From Halobacterium sp. DL1 (GTDB taxonomy: Archaea > Halobacteriota > Halobacteria > Halobacteriales > Halobacteriaceae), in NCBI GenBank assembly GCA_000230955.3, contig CP007061.1, forward strand, positions 124,001 through 188,000: a stretch of DNA of 64,000 nucleotides, written 5' to 3'. The notes under the pieces were generated by a model, which had not been told where the DNA came from, made no database searches, and worked only from the letters and a program-made list of their open reading frames with translations. A program made the translations under genes and the position numbers. Shown here piece by piece: positions 24,004-63,132 of this stretch (positions are counted from its first letter, which is position 1; each line of letters opens with the position of its first letter).

Positions 24004-25275
24004 TCATCCAAAACCCCCGTCAAACAGCCGCATTGTACGGCTCCACACAGATGATGTCTCAGACTCGTCTTCATTCTCCCTCGCAGTACCAGTTTGCTCG
24101 TTCTGGGGCTGCTCAGTTTCTCGGTCACGGGCTGCCAGTTCGTCGGTGAGCCGCTCGACCTCTGCTTCCAGGGTATCGATCCGCTCAGTCTTCTGTTCGA
24201 GTGTTGCCTCGAGTTCGTCGACCCGCTTGGTCAACAGTCGGTTTTTCTCCGCCAAATATGCACGACTCCGGTCTGCGTCGTCAGGGGTACCGCCAGCTGT
24301 GACCCCGTCCGGTGGGCCGTGGGGATCTGCGGCGTCGTCGCCGGCATCCGGGTCGTAGAACTCCGAAGTGGTCGCAATCGCTCTCTCGATGGTCTTTTCG
24401 CCGTACGTCGACCCGTCAGCGTAGTGGACCTCGTCCCATTTCTCCCGAAATAATCCTGACTGGCGGAACAGCTGCTCCATCTGCGTCCGGTCGCCACCGG
24501 TCCAGAACGCCAGCAGACAACACAGCGCCATGTCGGCCTCGGACTGACTGTCGTAGCCGACCGTATTCCCGTTCCAGAGCCGCTCGAACTTCTCGCCGTT
24601 CGATGCGTTTCGCGCTTTCTCGAGGAGGTTTTCGTCTTCGAGGTCGACGTCAACGTCGGCTGCACCGGTTGTCGGTGACTGGTCGTCAGCGCCACCACGC
24701 TGCTCGGACTTGGATACTGTGTCACGCTCGGTGTCCTGGACGTACTCGCGGTGAATCGCTGTGAGTGCGTCCTGCCGACGTGCAACGCGCGTTGGCGTTC
24801 GCTCGACGTGGTCGCCAGTGACGGTGAAAAAGCGTGCCGTGTCGTACAGTTCGACGCTCCCGCGGCGATTCCGCCCCTCCGGGAGTTCGCCCCTGATGAG
24901 CACGTGGTAGCCGGTTCCAGTGGGCGACACCTCCGTATAGGAGTCGAGTCGTTCGATGATGTCCAGCGCCGCGTCGTCGACGTCGCCGGTTTCAGGATCA
25001 CGGCAGTCGTCCAGGTCGACGCCGACGATGGGATCGTCGTCGGTAAACACGAATCCGACGCCATCGGCGTGTGCCGTCTCGGTGTACTCGAGTGCTGCCT
25101 CGAAACTCGCCCAGGTCTCCGACTCTGTTGATGATGCGAACCCCCCAGCCCCCGGTGTCACCGGAATCTTCGTCGGCTTGCCGTCCCGCTCCTCTTCGCG
25201 CCAGCACACCCACTGGTCGCGTTCGCGTAACGTCTCCGGAATCGTCTCCGGTTCGTCGACAATCGGTTCACTCAT
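24004..25275 (-). CDS. Primase-polymerase-like replication protein (NrS-1 polymerase type)
   Basis: 423 residues from ATG 25275 (MSEPIVDEPETIPETLRERD). N-terminal half: QWVCWREEERDGKPTKIPVT, DGVGFVFTDDDPIVGVDLDD (paired Asp of an archaeo-eukaryotic primase catalytic site) and YHVLIRGELPEGRNRRGSVE (basic/His strand). Second domain, about residues 225-310: SEADMALCCLLAFWTGGDRT then QMEQLFRQSGLFREKWDEVH, typical of NrS-1/P4-type primase C-terminal helical domains. A coiled-coil tail follows (LLTKRVDELEATLEQKTERI). No helicase is fused. It lies directly beside repeat array A, so it is the best candidate replication protein of the element. Confidence 0.75.
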   Translation of the reverse strand: MSEPIVDEPETIPETLRERDQWVCWREEERDGKPTKIPVTPGAGGFASSTESETWASFEAALEYTETAHADGVGFVFTDDDPIVGVDLDDCRDPETGDVDDAALDIIERLDSYTEVSPTGTGYHVLIRGELPEGRNRRGSVELYDTARFFTVTGDHVERTPTRVARRQDALTAIHREYVQDTERDTVSKSEQRGGADDQSPTTGAADVDVDLEDENLLEKARNASNGEKFERLWNGNTVGYDSQSEADMALCCLLAFWTGGDRTQMEQLFRQSGLFREKWDEVHYADGSTYGEKTIERAIATTSEFYDPDAGDDAADPHGPPDGVTAGGTPDDADRSRAYLAEKNRLLTKRVDELEATLEQKTERIDTLEAEVERLTDELAARDRETEQPQNEQTGTARENEDESETSSVWSRTMRLFDGGFG

Positions 25276-25345
25276 CCTCACACAGCACCTCGCATGGCTC
25301 TCACTGGCTCTGAGCCAGCACAGACTTCACGCTGCTCTACGTCTC

Positions 25346-25396
25346 GATCCAATCCCTTGGTCCCAACGGGGACCCCCCGTTCTATCCTAGTTGGTT
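25346..25396. repeat. 51-bp conserved box, copy A (origin-like)
   Basis: Begins GATCCAATCCCTTGG and ends CTATCCTAGTTGGTT. The centre holds the dyad GGTCCC-AACG-GGGACC followed by CCCCC. It aligns without gaps to 61840-61890 with eight or fewer differences. A dyad next to a C/G run resembles archaeal origin recognition boxes, but I cannot confirm a match to a published consensus. The array of GGGTGGAACA starts 3 nt after it. Confidence 0.7.
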
Positions 25397-25399
25397 GTT

Positions 25400-25576
25400 G
25401 GGTGGAACACCCGCTATAACTGGTTAAAAATCGCCAGACGTGAGAGTGTTCCACCCATTTCGGCCGTCTCGTTGGTGTTCCACCCATTGAGGATTTGGGT
25501 GGAACATGCCGTCGTCGGGTGATTTTCGACTTGCGAGTCTGGTGGGTTGAAGTCATGATTCTGATTGGGTGGAACA
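25400..25576. repeat. Iteron-like array A (GGGTGGAACA, 5 copies)
   Basis: GGGTGGAACA at 25400-25409, 25497-25506 and 25567-25576; its complement TGTTCCACCC at 25447-25456 and 25476-25485. All are preceded by T or AT on the repeat strand. The array fills the gap between the primase-like gene and the 3' end of the conjugation operon, with an AT stretch (ACTGGTTAAAAATCG) between copies 1 and 2. Confidence 0.85.
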
Positions 25577-25626: not shown

Positions 25627-28600
25627 TCATGACTCAGGTCCCTCTTCAGAGCGAATGCGGATACCAGTGTAATGCCGTACGGGTTCTCCGTCGATTCGCT
25701 TCTTCGTGGAGTCCACCTCGATGTGAGTGTTGAGCTTCCGTGTGAACCAGCTCTTATTCAGCGGCTCGTCGATGCCATGTGCCTCTGCCCAGTCGTTGTA
25801 GAGGCCGAATACCTCATCTTTCGGCACGGCTTCATCTGCGTCTTCGATAAGATATTCGTCGACGAACGATTCGAACGACGGTGGCGATTGGTCTTCCTGC
25901 TTCTCTTCGACCGGCCCATCTGCCTGGTCGGTCTGACTGGGTGGTTCGTCAGCGGCCGCTGATCCGGACGATGCCGGATGGAGCGACCCGTCGGTGATTG
26001 CAGAGAGTGGCCGCTTCTCACCGTCTTCATACACTACTGATTCCGCCTCATCGTGAAGGATAACGATGCTGTACGTCGAACGTGTGTAGTCTGGTACGGG
26101 GAGTTCGGCTTCGGGGACGAATGGCTTCTTGATACGCACCCAGTCATCCTCGAACGCCGATTTCGACTCGTAGATGTGTTGCTCACCGTGCTCGTATACG
26201 ACGTACTCGTCGGCAGCGTGGTCGTAGCTGTAGATGGCTGGCACGCGATCCTTCGAGAGGGTCGAAAGCGACGGGACACGGTTGTGTTCCGTTCCGCTGG
26301 CATCACGAAGGACGATTTCGTCGTCATCACGCTGCCAGATGTTCTGGATCCTGTTCTCGTCGCCGTTCGCCGGTCGCACGGCCGTCACTCCCCCTTCTTC
26401 GGTCGCTCCGCCGTTGAACGTGAGATTCGAGTCGGTCGTGTAGAACCTCGTCTCGCCATTCTGGAGGGTGCGAACGGGTGGCGTGAGAATGCCGTCGACA
26501 CGGTCGGCCCACTCAGTTTCGTCGTTTCCTGGTCGAACGACAAACAGCGGGATATCCTCTGCCTCTTGGGCTTTCCGGAGGTTCGTGAGTACTTTCGCGG
26601 GATTCTCGGGTGTCGTCGTTTCGACTTCGATAGCGAATCGGTCGGCAACGTCGGGGTGGCTCGCCGTCGCGTCAGGTTTCTCGCTGCCATCCTGTGCGAG
26701 GATCGAGACCGTGAAGCCGAGTGCGGTGAGCTCTTCTTCGATCTGGCGGAGTGCTGTGTCGTGGGCACTCCCCCCAGCTGCCTGCACGCCACCAGTATCG
26801 GGCATCGCGACCTCCTCTCCGGCTTCAGTGAGCCGGATTCGGAGTTCGTCAGCGTCGATATCGACGGTCGTATCGAGGTATCGTGATCGTTCTCGAATGT
26901 CCGCGAGTGCATCATACGACGGGGGTTCGGCGTCGACGTCGTCGAAGAGTCGTCTGAGTTCGTCGTCGACTGCTTCGACGGCCACCCAGCCGTTCTCTTC
27001 ACGGCATCCTTCTCGAAGCTGGAGACTCCGGACCACCTTCGCAATCGCACCGTCCAGGTCATCGCTCGCAATATCGAGGACATCGTGTCCGTCGGCAGGT
27101 GGTCTCGTTGTTGTGGTGTCTGTCTCAGCCGGCACACCGTGTCTGTCACTGATGTGTTCGTGCATCGCGGAGAGCGTCTCAGTGAACTGCTCCTCTTCAC
27201 GCGCTGTGAGAGGCGATTCACTCTCGGGGTGGCCCGGTGGAATCGGGAGTGGTTCGAGACTGAACGGATACGGCCCCGTTTCACCGAACGTCGGGCTCGG
27301 CAGGCTGGCGATCCACTCTCCTCGCGGCAACGAACGAATCCGGTTGGCGAAATCCGTGGGGTCCATCTCTTCGTGGGCCATCGCTCGTGCCAGTTCTCGG
27401 TCGACGTTGATTTTCCCGATGAGCGAACTGCCGATGTTGTTCAGGGCGTTCAGGTAGATTTTTCGCCCGCCTTCGGCCTCCATCTGTTCGGGGAACTGCA
27501 TCGACAGGCCGACAGAGAGCCGGAATCCCCGCCCTTTCTCGAGGAGATCGTTCATAATGTCGGAGACCACGACCGATGCTGCCTCGTCAACGAGCAAGTT
27601 CACGACGTAGTCATCCGGGTGTTGGGAGAGCGCCCGTTTGCGATCCTTGAGGGCTGCATCGAGATTGGTCAGGATCACACCGGTCATGATCCGGGCGGCG
27701 TCGTCGCGAAGGTCTCCAAGGTCGAAGAGAATGACCGTATCTTCGTCGAGGACATCCCGAAAGTCGAACTGGTTCTCGGTATTATTGAAGATCTGACGCA
27801 GGTGCGTATCCTGCGAGATGTAGGCGAGACGGTTTCCGACACCGCCCATCACGTTCGCGAAGGTGTTCGAATCTAACTGAAGTTGCCGTCGGATCGTTCG
27901 AGTGACTTCCTCGTCGCTCGACCGCGGGGCGTCGCCGATGTTCTCGTTCGGTGGCCCGGCCTCCCAGAGCTGGTCGACTACGTGTTCGAGCTGTCGGTGG
28001 GCGAAGTAGTCCGTCGACGCTCGGTACAGCCCGTTCTCACGCCCGTACTCCTCGTCGAACAGTGCCTTGATGAGTGTCTTGATGAGAGTTGGGGCCACAG
28101 TCGCTCGCTCGTAGCGGTCGGTTCCCATCACGAGCTTCAAAATCTCTTCGTAGTGGTCGGCCTTCCGTTGGACGGCGTCTTCGCGGCGCCGTCCGCTCTC
28201 CATCGACGGTTCGAGATCGAAAAACGAGAACCCGGGGAGGACGTCTGGCACCGGGAAGTGAACGACGTTCTCTTCGAGATCGGTTATTCCGAACCGACGC
28301 CCGTGAGCCCGCATGTAGTTCTGGGCCATGTCGTCGTTCTTCGGGATAATGAGGATAGTTGGCCCCTCGGTGTTGTCGTATAGCGACAGCATATCGTTGA
28401 TCAGGGCTTTCGATTTCCCAGAGCCGGTTGTTCCGAACCGGCCGTAATGAGTGGGCAGCAGTCGGGGCGGAATATGTGTTGGCTCGCCTTCGGCCTCGCC
28501 GGTATCATTGAGTGCGTACCCGATTGCCATCCCGTCACGGAACTCATTCATCAGATCTTGGTGGGGGCGTGGCAACGGATTCCGACTCTGCTGTTCCGCA

Positions 28601-29949
28601 CGCGTCCCACGTGCTCCCTCGACAGTAAGCTGTTCCGAGGAGGGAACGAGTACGAAGTGCGCGAGTTCTCGACCACTTAGCACGAACCCGGGTCGGGTCT
28701 TCCCACGGCCGGTCGTGATCTCACGATCCAAGAGCCGCTGCAACGTCGCTCGTGTGTTCCGTTCTTTCGTGGCTGCCCGAAAGCCGCTGTCGCGCAACCG
28801 TTCAGCCGTAACCTCGTAATACGGCCCGTCAAGCGGATCGAATACCGGGACAAGTGATTGCATCCGCTCATCGAGATCATCGCGACCGTCGTCACCGGAT
28901 GGAATCCCGATTGCTCGGATGTTCGCGGTGAACGACCGCTTCGGATTTTTCGCCTCGATTGCCTCGACGCGTTTTGCAACCGCGTCGCTAAGCTGGTTTT
29001 TGTCCCGGTTCTCCGATTGGCCGTCGAGTTCGAAGAGGGAGCCAATAATCTCCTGGGCGAGTGTGTCCCGCCCGTCGATGATGTCCTCCTTGCGAAGATC
29101 GGCATCGGACTGCCAGCTCTTGCGTCGCTGGAAGACGACCTGGAACGCCACTGGTGCTGTCGCCTCCATCAGGTGGTCGACGAGCGACGCGAGCGCACCT
29201 CCTGGCTGATCGACGGCTGAAAGTTCCTCTTCGTCGTCGTCGGCAGTGAATGGCGAGAGTGAGGTCATCCAGTCCTGCTTTCGAGTGGCCGACCCCTGCC
29301 ACCGCACGCCGAGTGGGGAGACGGTCTCGGTCGCTGGCCGGGCGAGTATCGTCCCATCTGATGTTACCGTTGGTTCGGCAAGCGTGGTTAGTGGCTCATC
29401 CTCGGGAATCGCATCTGGTGGGGCGAGTTCGAGGGCGGTGTCTCCGAACTCGATGATGTGGTCGGCAGACAGGTCGCCGACCGTCCCTCCATCCGCGACT
29501 GATTCGGCGTCTGCTGGCCTCGCTTGACTGTCGTCGTCAGTCCCGAGTTTGTATTGCTCGTCAGGACCGAATTCGTACGTGAGATCGCCCGACTCATAGT
29601 GATCGACGAATGTCTCTCGGTCGAATTCCACAGGCTGCACGAGTCGGGATACGACGTCGATTTCGGTACGCTCGATGTCGAACGTCTCGGGATAGACCGA
29701 CCGGAGACGTTTCTCAAGCGTATCCAGATGATCGTCGGCACCGTAGTAGAATTCGACGGGGGCGTCTGCACCCTCGCTGAGCGCGAGAAATTCGAATCGT
29801 AGCGGTGTTTTGCTGTGTAGCGGATTGAGTTTGTCAGCTAGCCCTGTCGAGTCCATTGCGGTCAGTTTGTGGAGACTCTCCAGTGTCTGCGGCAGCCGCT
29901 CCGGATTGAGGCGTTCGGAGGTAGGCGTCACGCGGAGGTACTCACGCAT
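25627..29949 (-). CDS. Large conjugation ATPase / coupling protein (TraD/VirD4-like role)
   Basis: 1440 residues from ATG 29949 (MREYLRVTPTSERLNPERLP), which overlaps the VirB4 stop by 8 nt. Walker A is GRFGTTGSGKSKAL at about residue 510, with an FDLGDL strand and Walker B VNLLVDEAAS near residue 785, followed by KGRGFRLSVGLSMQFPEQM, the RecA-fold order of HerA/VirD4/VirB4 ATPases. About 500 N-terminal residues are acidic. The C-terminal third has VSILAQDGSEKPDATASH ... ADRFAIEVETTTPENPAKV (nuclease-fold-like strands) and, at the end, a small helical domain (YLIEDADEAVPKDEVFGLYN) like primase/DUF5906 winged domains. It probably feeds DNA to the secretion channel. The window shows no relaxase. 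Confidence 0.75.
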   Translation of the reverse strand: MREYLRVTPTSERLNPERLPQTLESLHKLTAMDSTGLADKLNPLHSKTPLRFEFLALSEGADAPVEFYYGADDHLDTLEKRLRSVYPETFDIERTEIDVVSRLVQPVEFDRETFVDHYESGDLTYEFGPDEQYKLGTDDDSQARPADAESVADGGTVGDLSADHIIEFGDTALELAPPDAIPEDEPLTTLAEPTVTSDGTILARPATETVSPLGVRWQGSATRKQDWMTSLSPFTADDDEEELSAVDQPGGALASLVDHLMEATAPVAFQVVFQRRKSWQSDADLRKEDIIDGRDTLAQEIIGSLFELDGQSENRDKNQLSDAVAKRVEAIEAKNPKRSFTANIRAIGIPSGDDGRDDLDERMQSLVPVFDPLDGPYYEVTAERLRDSGFRAATKERNTRATLQRLLDREITTGRGKTRPGFVLSGRELAHFVLVPSSEQLTVEGARGTRAEQQSRNPLPRPHQDLMNEFRDGMAIGYALNDTGEAEGEPTHIPPRLLPTHYGRFGTTGSGKSKALINDMLSLYDNTEGPTILIIPKNDDMAQNYMRAHGRRFGITDLEENVVHFPVPDVLPGFSFFDLEPSMESGRRREDAVQRKADHYEEILKLVMGTDRYERATVAPTLIKTLIKALFDEEYGRENGLYRASTDYFAHRQLEHVVDQLWEAGPPNENIGDAPRSSDEEVTRTIRRQLQLDSNTFANVMGGVGNRLAYISQDTHLRQIFNNTENQFDFRDVLDEDTVILFDLGDLRDDAARIMTGVILTNLDAALKDRKRALSQHPDDYVVNLLVDEAASVVVSDIMNDLLEKGRGFRLSVGLSMQFPEQMEAEGGRKIYLNALNNIGSSLIGKINVDRELARAMAHEEMDPTDFANRIRSLPRGEWIASLPSPTFGETGPYPFSLEPLPIPPGHPESESPLTAREEEQFTETLSAMHEHISDRHGVPAETDTTTTRPPADGHDVLDIASDDLDGAIAKVVRSLQLREGCREENGWVAVEAVDDELRRLFDDVDAEPPSYDALADIRERSRYLDTTVDIDADELRIRLTEAGEEVAMPDTGGVQAAGGSAHDTALRQIEEELTALGFTVSILAQDGSEKPDATASHPDVADRFAIEVETTTPENPAKVLTNLRKAQEAEDIPLFVVRPGNDETEWADRVDGILTPPVRTLQNGETRFYTTDSNLTFNGGATEEGGVTAVRPANGDENRIQNIWQRDDDEIVLRDASGTEHNRVPSLSTLSKDRVPAIYSYDHAADEYVVYEHGEQHIYESKSAFEDDWVRIKKPFVPEAELPVPDYTRSTYSIVILHDEAESVVYEDGEKRPLSAITDGSLHPASSGSAAADEPPSQTDQADGPVEEKQEDQSPPSFESFVDEYLIEDADEAVPKDEVFGLYNDWAEAHGIDEPLNKSWFTRKLNTHIEVDSTKKRIDGEPVRHYTGIRIRSEEGPES

Positions 29950-32149
29950 CGTCGCCACCTCCTGCTGGACCACCATCAGTCTCTGTTGGCGTCCGCTCAG
30001 GTGGGAGTTGTCCGTTGTCTGTCGCTCGGCTTTCAATGTCCTCCTGGAACGCCTGTACGTCCGCGTCCATCGGATTCTCGCCAGTGCCGGGGAGTGAGGC
30101 TCGCCGTTGCTCGGTTGGCTCGAAGTCGATGACCTGTTTCTCCTTGGGCATCGCTTTGACCTTGATCCCGCGCCACTCGCCGTCGACGCCGACGAGTGCT
30201 TCGGAGAAGCCTGCATCCTCGTTGCCGGGGACGGCATCCTGGACGAACCGCATCTGCGCGTAGTTCAGTCCGAACTCGTCGGCCCACGCCTTGTCCATCC
30301 CGTCCAACCGATGGAACTGCTTGACGGCACACTGATCGAGGATCGCTTCGGATTCGGCGTGCTCGAAGAACTCGTCGACGGTCTGGGTGACCAGCCGAAT
30401 CGAGAGATCGTGGTGTCGGTGATGGCGGAACACCGTCTCGAGGAACGCCAGACTTGCCGCGTCCTGCATGATGTAGCGGGCCTCGTCGATGTAGAACACG
30501 ACCTCCTTGTCTGAAACCTTCGCTCGCTCGTAGACCAGCGAGATGAGTAGCTGCATCGTCAGTGCCGTGCTGCTGTCCACGCTGCCTTCCTGCTGGGCCA
30601 GATCGAGATAGATCACCTTCTCGTCCCGGATGTCGAAATCGGATTCTTGACCGAGATTGGCGTGGCGACCGTCGTCCTCGAAGGGACGAAGCTGATCGAG
30701 CAACCACGTCGCGTCGTCCTTGATTTTCCCTGCCTCCTCGTCGGACCGCACGACGAACTCCTCGGGGTCGTTGATCATGTCCTCGAAGACGTCCATCATG
30801 TCGCGGATGGTCGGGCTCGGGTTGCTGTGCGTGGAGATGTCGTCGGTAATCCCCTGGCGCTTGTAGGCGCGCTTGAGGGCGAGTTCGAGCGTCGTCCGCC
30901 GGTCGCCGAGCGAGATGCCGCGGAGCGCGAAGAAGTTCGTCAGGAAGCTCATCGCGTCGTCGAGCTTCTCGTTGAACGGACTCGCGTCCTCACCCATCGC
31001 CCGCTGGACGTGCTCGGGCGTCTCGCGAATTTCCAGAGGGTTCAGGCCGAGTGTCCCGCCGACCGTGATTCGCTTGGCGTCGAGCGCCTCTGAGACACCG
31101 GCCCAGTTGTTCAGCGGTTCGAGGATGATTCCGATGCGGTCCTTGCTCTGCTCGATGGAGCGGATAAAGTTCTGCTTGGAGCTGAACGACTTCCCCGAGC
31201 CCGTGTCGCCGACGGTGAACATCGCGTACCCGTTGTCTCGGGAGAAGGGATCGATGACGACGGGGCTCTGGTTGTCTTTGTGAATGCCGAACTCGACGCC
31301 GCCCTCCTCGAGGATCGTCGCGTTGTGTGGGGAGGACAGTAACGCGCCGACGGCGCCACCGAGCGCGATCGATGTCCGGCCGAACTCGTTGTCGCCGATG
31401 GGCGCGGCGGATTGGAGGGCGAGGTCCTGCCGGCAAATCGCGGTCTTCGGCGTGAGGTTCGCCGGGTCGTCCCGGAGCGCACTCTTGACCGTCTGGACGG
31501 CATCTCTGAGGTGGTCTTTCTCGTCGGTCCGCACGGTGATGAACATCCCCTGGTCGAAGACGTTCGCGCCGTTCTCGACGGCCTTGTACGTCGCTGCAGC
31601 CTCGTTGGCTCGCTCTTGGAGATAGGCACTCCGGATACTCTGTTCGAGGTCAGCATCGACCTGAAGGTCGTCGGCGATGTCCTGCAGTTCGTTCCGAGCT
31701 CGCTCCTGGTTCTTCGGCGTGATGTGGGCGGTGAGGTCGAACTGGACGTCGGTCATCTCGAAGAGGTCGCTCAGATACCCGTCGTTGGGATAGTCGGCAT
31801 AGTTAGCGATGTACAGCGTCGTCGTCCACTGCTCGCCGACCCGTGCGGCTCGCGTTTCCCATTCGACAGCTCCGGGCGCGGTGACGGACTTGTGCGACTC
31901 GGAAATATCGTCGAGGAGCTGGCGTTCGGCCTCGCCTTCTTTGAGTGTCTCCTCGTCGAGGACGTCCGCGAAGTCCATGTCTGGTTCATCATCCGCAGTG
32001 AAGCGGTCCCAGAGATGTTTGCTGCCGACACCGAGGATGAGTCCCACCACGAGAGCAAGCACTGCTCCCTCCGCTGGTGACAGGTTCTGGAGCCACTCGG
32101 CGACGGGGCCAAGTGCGCCACCACCTGTCTGGAGGACCACGTTACGCAT
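29942..32149 (-). CDS. virB4: VirB4-like conjugation ATPase
   Basis: 735 residues. One N-terminal membrane segment (about 25-42, EGAVLALVVGLILGVG). Walker A is VGDTGSGKSFSSKQ (314-321) and Walker B VVFYIDEARYI (550-557), followed by RLVTQTVDEFFEHAESEAIL (sensor region) and QFHRLDGMDKAWADEFGL. The C-terminal 60 residues are disordered and Gly-rich. VirB4 powers assembly of type IV secretion pili and channels. Overlaps its neighbours at both ends, so it is tightly coupled in the operon. Confidence 0.88.
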   Translation of the reverse strand: MRNVVLQTGGGALGPVAEWLQNLSPAEGAVLALVVGLILGVGSKHLWDRFTADDEPDMDFADVLDEETLKEGEAERQLLDDISESHKSVTAPGAVEWETRAARVGEQWTTTLYIANYADYPNDGYLSDLFEMTDVQFDLTAHITPKNQERARNELQDIADDLQVDADLEQSIRSAYLQERANEAAATYKAVENGANVFDQGMFITVRTDEKDHLRDAVQTVKSALRDDPANLTPKTAICRQDLALQSAAPIGDNEFGRTSIALGGAVGALLSSPHNATILEEGGVEFGIHKDNQSPVVIDPFSRDNGYAMFTVGDTGSGKSFSSKQNFIRSIEQSKDRIGIILEPLNNWAGVSEALDAKRITVGGTLGLNPLEIRETPEHVQRAMGEDASPFNEKLDDAMSFLTNFFALRGISLGDRRTTLELALKRAYKRQGITDDISTHSNPSPTIRDMMDVFEDMINDPEEFVVRSDEEAGKIKDDATWLLDQLRPFEDDGRHANLGQESDFDIRDEKVIYLDLAQQEGSVDSSTALTMQLLISLVYERAKVSDKEVVFYIDEARYIMQDAASLAFLETVFRHHRHHDLSIRLVTQTVDEFFEHAESEAILDQCAVKQFHRLDGMDKAWADEFGLNYAQMRFVQDAVPGNEDAGFSEALVGVDGEWRGIKVKAMPKEKQVIDFEPTEQRRASLPGTGENPMDADVQAFQEDIESRATDNGQLPPERTPTETDGGPAGGGDDA

Positions 32150-60416: not shown

Positions 60417-61346
60417 ATGTCCCGCTGGGAGCACATTGATCTCCAACAGGCACTCACCTACGATGAGGAACTCACCCTCTACCGAATTACGCGGATGTAC
60501 CTTGGCCAACCCGAAGGCTTCGACGATCTTGAGATCACGAGCGGGATAGAAGACGACTATCTCCTCCCGCAGCCGATGCCAGACGACGACCAAATCGCCA
60601 TCGGCGACGCTGACCTTGCTGACCTCGAGGAGAAGGGGTTCATCACCCAGGAAACCGTGATGCGACGGAACTACTGGGGCCTCACGGAGAAGGGAAAAGC
60701 AGCTGTCCCTACGTTTTTCGAGGAGTTTGACACCGATCCCAACGAATCGATCACCCACCGAATCGGCGTCCAGCTCGCCGATATGTATCTCCGCAACATC
60801 GCAGTGGGCTATAACACTCGGGGTGTCCGCACTTACCAGTCGATCGACGAGTTCGACCCCGCCAAGACGTTCGACGTCATCGCGTACTCGAAAGACGACC
60901 ACGAGCCACGCGTCCGCGTCGAGGTCGAACGGGAGTCAAACAACTACGACGCCGTCGTCGACGACTTCGAAAAACTCCGCGACGCCGGCTACCACGACGC
61001 CCCTCACTACACGGGCGCCGCATTCTGGGTATTCCCCCGCCGGAGCACCGCCTACAAGATCATCAACCTCCTCATCGACCGCGACCTGATCAGCCTCCGT
61101 AACGGGAAGATCAACAAGAATACCCCACTCGCACGCGCCCAGCGTGAGGTTGGTGAGTGCTACAACCCCGGCTTCGACGCCTTCACCACGTATTCGAAGC
61201 TCATGTTCTGGGACTTCGAATTCGACGGCGACCACATCGCCCCCATCGGCGACCGCGCAATCCTCGACGAACTCCGGGAGGATCCAGCGTACGACTACGT
61301 CGATGAGAACATCTACAACACAGCCGTTGACCAACGCGCCGTCTGA
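60417..61346 (+). CDS. Winged-helix protein with nuclease-like C-terminal domain, next to repeat arrays
   Basis: 309 residues. N-terminal winged helix at about 12-105 (TYDEELTLYRITRMYLGQPE, DLADLEEKGFITQETVMRRN, WGLTEKGKAAV). Then FDVIAYSKDDHEPRVRVEVE followed by RESNNYDAVVDDFEKLRDAG looks like the Asp ... E-x-E core of a PD-(D/E)XK-type fold. C-terminal helix-rich part (WVFPRRSTAYKIINLLIDRD). It lies 70 nt upstream of array B (GTGCGTCGGT), so it may bind that array as a replication or regulatory protein. No family recognised. Confidence 0.55.
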   Translation: MSRWEHIDLQQALTYDEELTLYRITRMYLGQPEGFDDLEITSGIEDDYLLPQPMPDDDQIAIGDADLADLEEKGFITQETVMRRNYWGLTEKGKAAVPTFFEEFDTDPNESITHRIGVQLADMYLRNIAVGYNTRGVRTYQSIDEFDPAKTFDVIAYSKDDHEPRVRVEVERESNNYDAVVDDFEKLRDAGYHDAPHYTGAAFWVFPRRSTAYKIINLLIDRDLISLRNGKINKNTPLARAQREVGECYNPGFDAFTTYSKLMFWDFEFDGDHIAPIGDRAILDELREDPAYDYVDENIYNTAVDQRAV

Positions 61347-61418
61347 CCTCCCAGATTACTGAGATAGCCACTTGGCGCCTGAAGTTCGTACCGTCTCTTT
61401 ATCTGGACGCAAACCACG

Positions 61419-61610
61419 ACCGACGCACACCAAATAGCGAGTTTAGAGACGAGGAAAAACGCTGTAAGAGTGCGTCAGAGCGTATTCAATGTGCGTCGGT
61501 TTTCGAAGTGCGTCGGTCTTCTCCAAATCATCTAGTACAAGCCCCAGATTGACCGAAAATCTACGATTCATGCGCCTCAAAACAGACCCGCTCGCTGAAT
61601 GTGCGTCGGT
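61419..61610. repeat. Iteron-like array B (GTGCGTCGGT, 5 copies)
   Basis: GTGCGTCGGT at 61491-61500, 61508-61517 and 61601-61610; a variant GTGCGTCAGA at 61470-61479; the complement ACCGACGCAC at 61419-61428. Located downstream of the gene at 60417 in a gene-free region. Copies 2 to 4 are about 17-21 bp apart, copy 5 is 93 bp further. Confidence 0.85.
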
Positions 61611-61725
61611 ATGAATCCGACGTGATACGAACCGCGGTCCGGTCACAGTTGGAGGCCACAACGGAACCAGAATAGACGAAATTGAACCATCGACCCAGAG
61701 GCAATCAGGATTCAAAGGTAACGCG

Positions 61726-61766
61726 TTAACCAACAATCCCGGTCCAGTCTCGGTATTGTTGGTTAA
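61726..61766. repeat. Inverted repeat family 1, copy 7
   Basis: TTAACCAACA (61726-61735) and TGTTGGTTAA (61757-61766), perfect, 21-nt spacer. It lies between arrays B and C, with no gene within 380 nt on the left. Confidence 0.9.
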
Positions 61767-61839
61767 TTATCTTCCCCCTCCACCGTTTCCGGAGCTTCGG
61801 CCGCCGTTGACGACAAACTCCTATCTGCAGGTAGCCGCC

Positions 61840-61890
61840 GATCCAATGCCTTGGTTCCAACGAGGAACCCCCCATCTATACTAGTTGGTT
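61840..61890. repeat. 51-bp conserved box, copy C (origin-like)
   Basis: Begins GATCCAATGCCTTGG and ends CTATACTAGTTGGTT, with central dyad GGTTCC-AACGA-GGAACC followed by CCCC. It aligns ungapped with 25346-25396. The dyad is kept in both although its bases differ. Array C starts 3 nt after it. Confidence 0.7.
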
Positions 61891-61892
61891 TT

Positions 61893-62065
61893 TGCCGTAA
61901 CAGAAATGCCAAGTCTGCGTAATCGGGATCGAGGACGGCTAATACGGGCGCACGGCAACGTCCCCTACTGCGTTTTCGTTACGGCAATCTCAGTGATTGC
62001 CGTAACAGAATTCTCTCTGTCGATTTCGAGGTTTCTGAGCCGTTGTCGCTGTCGATGCCGTAACA
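61893..62065. repeat. Iteron-like array C (TGCCGTAACA, 4 copies)
   Basis: TGCCGTAACA at 61893-61902, 61998-62007 and 62056-62065; an inverted, nearly exact copy (CGTTACGGCA) at 61977-61986. The last five bases, (G/T)AACA, match those of array A. AT-rich DNA lies between copies. Confidence 0.8.
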
Positions 62066-62484
62066 CGATTCCTCCTTCCGCTACACAGGCTGAAACTGCT
62101 GTACACGGCAGAATAGCTGGAGGCCATGCTGGACCATTTCTCATTCGCGCTCTCGTGGCAATCACAGCTGACGTCGTCACTAAGGGCTAATTCCTACTGG
62201 AACGAGGCGACCAGCGCTATCAGATCGTTGGCACCGCCCACGGAACCTCCAGAAGCTACACTGCTCTATAAAGAGACTCCACACTCAATCATAGTCAGAA
62301 TAGCTCCGTTTACTAGCGGAGGGAATTCTAATTGTGAAACCAGGATTTAGGGCCTTATTCGGACAACATCGACGAAATTAGTGGTAAACCGCAACTAGGA
62401 AAACTGACGGTGAGCTAAGTGAATCGATTATACGAGAGGGAGTGTCTCAATATCTTGGCACAAGGTGCTGCAAAGCCGAGGAAA
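62066..62484. other. Gene-free gap right of array C
   Basis: No ORF with haloarchaeal codon character. The right part is AT-rich (around 62330-62440) and would suit an unwinding region or promoter. No further repeat copies were seen. Confidence 0.4.
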
Positions 62485-63132
62485 CTATGAGTCGGAATCT
62501 TGGTTCAGAATATCCTTCGCCAATTCTTGCATACTCGTGTCCTTCTCTTCCCACCGGACGTCCCGAGAGACGATGAGAGTATACAGCCGTTCTTGCCGAT
62601 CCTCTATCTGGGAGTACCGAGAGAGTCCGAACATCCTCTTGAGTATCCTGTAGGAGTTGGCCTGCTGATAGGCATGAGCGTAGTAGCGGTCGGGTGCATC
62701 TGCCGTATAGAATATTGGAGTCACCTTTCGGTCAACACAATCCTCAATCACCTCTGGGTGGGTTCCAGGGTCCCACTCGTGGAGTTCGTAGCCCTCGTAA
62801 TCGTCGATTTCGTAATTCCCGCCCTCTACAGCAGTGCTCTGGTTCCGAAAGGCGACGACAGCTGACCAGTTCTGGTCCTCCGTTAGCACGATGTTGATCT
62901 CGTCAATTGGACCTTCGTGCCAGTCTCCAGGATAGTCCACCGCAACCCCGATGCGAGAGTCATCTTGCTCCCCAAGGATAATTGTGGGCCACCCACTCTT
63001 GGTCGAAGAACGGACCTCGATATCGTCCGCCAGCAGGCGTATGAGTGGATGTGCATGGACTCTCCTCCCCGGTGTATTCAGTTGTGTCCCGATTGGTAAC
63101 GGAATCCCGTCCTCAAAGTCCACGACTGGCAT
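62485..63132 (-). CDS. Hypothetical protein
   Basis: 215 residues, MPVVDFEDGIPLPIGTQLNT. Beta-rich N-terminal part (WPTIILGEQDDSRIGVAVDY, IDEINIVLTEDQNWSAVVAF) then helices (YAHAYQQANSYRILKRMFGL) and a charged C-terminus. It has a lower GC appearance than most genes here. No family recognised. It converges on the array C region. Confidence 0.5.
   Translation of the reverse strand: MPVVDFEDGIPLPIGTQLNTPGRRVHAHPLIRLLADDIEVRSSTKSGWPTIILGEQDDSRIGVAVDYPGDWHEGPIDEINIVLTEDQNWSAVVAFRNQSTAVEGGNYEIDDYEGYELHEWDPGTHPEVIEDCVDRKVTPIFYTADAPDRYYAHAYQQANSYRILKRMFGLSRYSQIEDRQERLYTLIVSRDVRWEEKDTSMQELAKDILNQDSDS

Follow-up and report, generated by a model that had tools for sequence, protein, structure and literature searches.

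Downstream of a gene for a putative DNA-binding protein in Halobacterium sp. DL1 lies a cluster of short repeats, here termed array B, and the locus raises the question of what these repeats do and which protein reads them. The window, i.e. the whole stretch of 64,000 nt that was analysed, comprises bases 124001–188000 of contig C2 (315,592 bp). C2 carries Orc1/Cdc6 genes with ORB-like elements and a ParA-like gene (names from reading of the translations), and is treated here as a presumed plasmid. The repeats and their surroundings, in window coordinates, are as follows.

60417–61346, + strand: p60417, 309 aa, with a predicted winged helix (approximately aa 15–105) and a predicted PD-(D/E)XK-like core
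61347–62484, no strand: non-coding island, 1,138 nt between the convergent genes 60417–61346 (+) and 62485–63132 (-)
61419–61610, no single strand: array B, with exact GTGCGTCGGT at 61491–61500, 61508–61517 and 61601–61610 (+) and at 61419–61428 (-)
61470–61479, + strand: variant copy GTGCGTCAGA of array B, matching GTGCGTCGGT at 8 of 10 positions
61726–61766, no strand: copy of a dispersed inverted repeat TTAACCAAC...GTTGGTTAA, 41 nt
61776–61797, - strand: ORB-like element, 22 nt, identical to elements by an Orc1/Cdc6 gene at approximately 201–202.5 kb of the contig
61839–61891, + strand: orphan conserved core, with dyad arms CCAAC (61857–61861) and GTTGG (61884–61888) and CTATACTAGTTGGTTT at 61876–61891
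61893–62066, no single strand: array C, with TGCCGTAACAG at 61893 (+) and 61998 (+), TGCCGTAACAC at 62056 (+) and an inverted copy with 2 mismatches at 61976 (-)

Array B is a real and unusual iteron-like array. The preliminary description of this DNA reported five copies, one variant and one inverted, in a gene-free stretch; both points hold, as 192 nt contain four exact copies of GTGCGTCGGT (one inverted) together with the variant, and the only reading frames there are short and implausible. In 3,000 dinucleotide shuffles of 61347–62484 four copies of any 10-mer per 192 nt never occurred (maximum two), nor did four copies of any 9-mer (maximum three, reached twice). The word itself is not rare, with 16 matches at up to one mismatch in the whole window versus 9.75 ± 3.31 expected; it is the clustering that is. 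Exact copies number 13 in the 3.16-Mb genome, 4 of them inside array B. Because array B lies between convergent genes, an operator role for either annotated gene is unlikely.

An unbiased scan of all 315,592 bp of the contig for 9-mers with at least four copies per 260 nt returned CRISPR-like arrays at 17–20.6 kb, a cluster at 91.5 kb that adjoins an Orc1/Cdc6-like gene, plus the three arrays of the window: A at 149.4 kb, B at 185.4 kb and C at 185.9 kb. These three are alike in layout, being irregular, of mixed orientation and 170–190 nt in span, and differ in sequence, which agrees with the earlier proposal of three unrelated iteron-like families. The starts in array B are spaced 51, 21, 17 and 93 nt apart with one copy inverted, and thus lack the regular spacing of CRISPR. 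Elsewhere on the contig, CRISPR-like repeats in L075 (17051–20000) and L076 (1–620) have a regular period of approximately 65–66 nt, and in L079 (8670–11840; C2 88.7–91.8 kb) an Orc1/Cdc6-like gene is apparently split by a transposase gene, with flanking ATTGTAAGTG repeats.

A pattern search across 392 genomes of the order found no array like B. The two-copy pattern is present in 55 of these genomes; 15 loci were examined, the remaining places being known as matched strings, and at least four copies occur only in L122 and L127. In both of these the copies lie in a single orientation at short spacing and do not resemble array B, so array B as a widespread element was rejected. Phages gave no match to it, and plasmid matches fell on conserved elements rather than on array B. 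Two further identities were discarded: one of the iteron families that accompany the conserved core described below, as no family seen there is GTGCGTCGG, and a hidden core next to array B, as the best match to the core pattern in 61340–61720 has 3 mismatches.

The rest of the island holds elements of several kinds. The inverted repeat TTAACCAAC...GTTGGTTAA (40–42 nt) occurs in 19 copies on C2 (315 kb), the one at 61726–61766 included, and is also found on H. limi and S. japonicum plasmids; perhaps it serves partition or a shared regulator. Positions 62271–62463 are 71–76% identical to DNA of other haloarchaea, with a counterpart that adjoins a transposase gene in Haloplanus sp. HW8-1, and may be a mobile-element remnant.

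DNA searches with 61200–62480 or 61340–62480 recovered conserved non-coding DNA in 21 plasmid records and in 48 of 293 genomes. The strongest piece, which starts at 61839, recurs on plasmids of H. halophilum, H. limi and S. japonicum, where it separates a ‘conjugal transfer protein’ gene from an NrS-1-type primase-polymerase-like gene. Box C of the preliminary description belongs to this conserved site, which consists of a covarying dyad core followed by iterons. A second copy, linked to genes of this kind, is present in the window.

25345–25397, + strand: gene-linked core copy, dyad arms 25363–25367 and 25390–25394
25400–25576, no single strand: array A, GGGTGGAACA at 25400 (+), 25447 (-), 25476 (-), 25497 (+) and 25567 (+)
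25627–30237, - strand: coupling-ATPase-like (T4CP-like) protein with a C-terminal Pox_D5/RFX-like winged helix, the candidate iteron reader
24004–25281, - strand: NrS-1-type primase-polymerase-like protein (PF22763, 109 bits)

The window thus has this site twice, each time with iterons of its own. Of 392 genomes, 41 contain the core pattern CCCCN{0,6}CTATNNTAGTYGNTTT, and none contains the reversed pattern that served as a control. Merging of overlapping matches gave 48 places (42 distinct 80-mers), all of which were examined; the linked core of the window is missed by the pattern and stands outside the 48. Viral contigs gave no match in one search and a single match in another (L136), which has neither dyad nor repeats and was treated as chance and left uncounted. 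The 5-base dyad arms are fully complementary in 43 of the 48 cores, always at a start distance of 27; all other distances from 10 to 59 together gave 3 matches. The arms take the forms CCAAC/GTTGG (31 cores), CCGAC/GTCGG (9) and ACGAC/GTCGT (3), alongside GCACC/GTTGC (3, four of five pairs) and two more without full pairing. The variation is compensatory, which would suit a hairpin in the DNA as well as a dyad to which a symmetric protein binds.

Gene context was scored within flanks of up to 1.5 kb. The ATPase gene is on the iteron side in 43 of 48 cores, the primase-polymerase-like gene is on the other side in 41, both are present in 41, and neither lies within that distance in 5; one locus (L158) reached the gene thresholds in this analysis and only partly in another check. 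The five orphan cores are the window copy (L099), L062, L163, L120 and L165, with wider gene checks made for the window copy, L062/L163 and L120. Since the orphans keep the dyad without either gene, the core appears to function as DNA, in cis. Repeats are also seen after orphan cores; 12 of the 48 places have no 8-mer with at least three copies. L062 and L163 belong to the same 637-kb replicon, Natribaculum breve CP095391, where approximately 10 kb separate them. They differ in their iterons, and neither of the two ATPases, nor the primase-polymerase, nor p60417 has a match in the surrounding 30 kb.

For the linked genes, matches to profiles of coupling proteins and VirB4-like proteins stay below curated cut-offs: the T4CP-like ATPase has weak DUF87 and TraG-D_C matches and its neighbour a TraG P-loop match, all below cut-off. 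The annotation of the linked loci names genes for conjugal transfer or conjugation, and PLSDB assigns these loci to MPF_T; in the same database all 21 plasmid records that matched are classed as non-mobilizable. No relaxase appeared when selected genes of the window were scanned with Pfam.

How the iterons of the linked site might be read is suggested by the C-terminus of the ATPase. Compared with the ATPases of three plasmids with TGCCGTAAC iterons, the window ATPase is mostly 80–100% identical up to approximately column 1350 and 16–40% identical beyond it; the divergent tail is roughly the last 130 residues. This tail matches Pox_D5 in 16 of 16 C-termini, and its modelled structure resembles the DNA-binding domains of RFX proteins (E 2.6e-4 and 3.1e-4). 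For a wider comparison, iterons were scored as shared when a common 8-mer occurs at least twice in each of two places, over the 48 places plus the linked site of the window, which gave 44 ATPase fragments and 861 usable pairs, not independent of one another. Among pairs with ATPase bodies 90–99.9% identical, the winged helices are 84–100% identical where an iteron 8-mer is shared (26 pairs) and 25–49% where none is (37 pairs), ranges without overlap. One pair at 75–90% body identity breaks the trend: L108 and L114 share an 8-mer with 83% identity in the body and 46% in the winged helix. In an earlier version of the comparison, iteron families were sorted by hand and L093 was left out. A permutation test of winged helix against iterons on 11 related loci gave 23 of 20,000. 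As tail and iterons change together and are adjacent on the DNA, we infer that the C-terminal winged helix reads the iterons. The only Pox_D5 match in the genome is the window's own ATPase, linked to array A. A Pfam search of the genome, which could miss one, found no reader for array C; array C is an orphan, without a detectable reader in this genome.

The nearest candidate reader for array B is p60417, which the preliminary description put forward as its binder. Its proposed DNA-binding domain is borne out at the level of prediction. The model (mean pLDDT 77) has a winged helix and, after it, secondary structure in the alpha-beta-beta-beta-alpha-beta order of PD-(D/E)XK nucleases; among the solved structures listed, the matches are MarR/TubR/RosR-type winged helices for the first part (Z <8) and mostly restriction-type nucleases for the second (best PDB Z 7.5, all Z <8), with Foldseek E = 0.013 or worse. 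Predicted core residues are E110, H114, D153, E169 and E171, and D107, H114, D153 and E169 are invariant in a 35-member alignment; in the PD-(D/E)XK motif D153 and E169 are conserved and the third position is E, not K. The fold is likely a winged helix plus a PD-(D/E)XK-like domain. There is no Pfam match above cut-off, and a sequence search of solved structures returned PadR-type and ribosomal S10 stretches only, none under E 0.05. Replic_Relax, whose architecture we take to be similar, is absent as a Pfam profile from the matches at E <= 0.1 in the 35 family members.

Of the 293 genomes of the order that were searched, 68 (its own counted) have relatives of p60417, at roughly 23–38% identity outside itself; back-translated patterns found none, and tblastn found none in plasmids. 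Most relatives are a domain of approximately 200 residues ending frames of 1,200–1,700 residues. These frames represent a second type of coupling-ATPase-like protein, and p60417 is a relative of their C-terminal domain that stands alone. One relative on the same contig, P0003, aligns at 57% to the first T4CP-like protein over 972 columns. A common origin of p60417 and the nuclease-like stretch in ATPases of the first type was rejected (probability 1%, P 0.057), the two having only a D...E-V-E motif in common.

If p60417 reads array B, its winged helix would bind GTGCGTCGGT and its nuclease-like domain would nick nearby, which we regard as possible and somewhat doubtful; equally doubtful is the extension in which protein, array B and orphan core form a small mobilisation module. 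The gene ends 73 nt from the array, both predicted domains (the second with E110, H114, D153 and E169 conserved) suit such a role, and an array without counterpart stands beside a protein without close relative in the genomes searched. However, the expectation that homologues of the gene always have such repeats downstream failed: in 30 homologue loci, each with approximately 1.5 kb on both sides of the match, there is no non-coding array, and the only 9-mer in four copies (L026) is inside its reading frame. In 11 wider loci, arrays adjoin stand-alone homologues in L137/L138 (same sequence), L147 and L142, each family with a different sequence; L139, L140, L141 and L146 have no array with three copies, and L143, L144 and L145 have three-copy 9-mers approximately 0.9 kb or farther off. 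The homologues in L138 and L139 are identical at 269 of 291 positions overall and at 75 of 75 in the winged helix, and the DNA downstream aligns at 92–95% up to approximately 3270 in L138, then breaks at the start of the array. Near-identical homologues beside unlike arrays are evidence against such proteins reading adjacent arrays, in that group at least. Moreover, no p60417-like gene was seen by eye among the open frames listed for the orphan cores L062 and L120, nor did tblastn match p60417 in the 30-kb stretch with L062 and a second orphan core. The binder claim, weakly supported, is thus possible and not favoured.

In the same homologue loci, a conserved block with a GC-rich inverted repeat (L138:3158–3270, L139:3181–3291 and, in L147, up to 4982) sits just before the arrays that differ between close relatives. 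The block resembles a core of another type, again followed by repeats that can be exchanged.

The island could alternatively be a second replication origin, with arrays B and C as iterons and the ORB recruiting Orc1/Cdc6. The 22-nt ORB lies between these two arrays and is identical to elements of the contig's Orc1/Cdc6 locus, a likeness to haloarchaeal Orc1/Cdc6 origins, and a primase-polymerase-like gene adjoins linked cores. Yet array B is a different sequence from the ORB, no initiator gene adjoins the island, and the contig already has Orc1/Cdc6 loci, which makes this an unlikely account. Rep-Arvir rolling-circle origins likewise have a conserved hairpin and a variable binding site downstream of a gene (PMC13107129); by contrast, the core here follows a motor gene and has exchangeable iterons, and the two matches in the genome to the initiator family PF25227 are both on the other contig.

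Array B could also be a remnant, left by decay or arisen by chance, or else bind a transcription factor that controls a small RNA missing from the annotation. This is improbable: one copy is already degenerate and no homologous array turned up in anything searched, but four exact 10-mers per 192 nt are not expected by chance. Equally improbable, given the conjugal annotation and MPF_T typing of the linked loci, is that core and iterons serve to recruit or package plasmids into vesicles instead of serving conjugation, even though a VirB4/TrwB/packaging-ATPase-like protein is predicted to recruit haloarchaeal plasmids into vesicles (PMC10818511).

The favoured explanation, to which we give about an even chance, is that array B is a genuine recognition-site array among the cis-acting plasmid signals of the island, on which a specificity protein assembles. 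Its companions in the island are the ORB, a copy of the dispersed inverted repeat, and the core with array C, which form an orphan site of the transfer type; array B would add a further specificity array to them. A sequence-specific DNA-binding protein would assemble on it, and the plasmid would thereby be picked for transfer or maintenance. By analogy, the ATPase winged helix would load the motor on arrays A and C; loading of the ATPase at the site by its tail would mark the plasmid for export, the core may be the place of DNA opening or nicking, and orphan sites may be moved by the machine of another plasmid. The reader of array B would most likely be supplied in trans or be a protein not yet recognised, p60417 being the only candidate at hand. 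The explanation starts from array B, the island, the orphan core and the joint exchange of iterons and winged helix at the linked site, all observed here. As array B has neither a homologue in the collections searched nor an adjacent core, proximity and layout are what connect it to the transfer-type site.

In Streptomyces TraB a winged helix gives specificity, and clt is positioned beside the TraB gene. Vogelmann et al. (2011) reportedly studied this system. The core with its iterons may be a transfer-site candidate resembling TraB/clt: both have a motor-like transfer ATPase with a set of short repeats next to it, the tail of the haloarchaeal ATPase would take the part of the specificity winged helix, and in 43 of 48 cores the repeats are next to the 3′ end of the motor-ATPase gene, although array B itself has no such gene. 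Unlike TraB, the haloarchaeal ATPase resembles VirD4/HerA/TraG profiles and adjoins VirB4/TraG-like and primase-polymerase-like genes, and the repeats follow a conserved dyad core. Streptomyces conjugation needs a single plasmid protein, TraB, with the clt locus and its 8-bp TRS repeats (PMC4170104). The TraB type is marked by an FtsK-type motor that works without a type IV secretion system; what bears on this here are the weak DUF87 and TraG-D_C matches of the ATPase, the TraG P-loop match of its neighbour and the MPF_T typing. A bacterial oriT is similar in having an inverted repeat, more repeats, a position beside a coupling-protein-like gene and orphan copies elsewhere; however, as no relaxase was recognised by PLSDB typing or in the Pfam scans of selected genes, the haloarchaeal site is not classed as bacterial oriT/relaxase. 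Archaeal conjugative plasmids are described as lacking a recognisable relaxase (PMC9905601). Among open-licence papers listed for archaeal conjugation and coupling-protein sites, none was recognised as describing the core or its iterons.

More broadly, and with rather less than even confidence, haloarchaeal plasmids may have a new kind of transfer origin: a covarying dyad core with iterons that would be read by the Pox_D5/RFX-like tail of the ATPase, site and reader being exchanged together as a cassette. Orphan sites would then allow large replicons to be moved by the machine of another plasmid, and array B would be a third specificity array following the same logic.

The wider question is how haloarchaeal plasmids mark DNA for transfer, given that no recognisable relaxase is described for archaeal conjugative plasmids (PMC9905601). 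Array B alone is a smaller question and needs a reader; the neighbouring core-plus-iteron site is the more important result. It narrows the question to one sequence and one protein domain, both defined and open to testing, and the joint exchange of iterons and winged helix predicts rules of specificity. Orphan sites, if they are what they appear to be, would explain the movement of large replicons that lack matching machinery.
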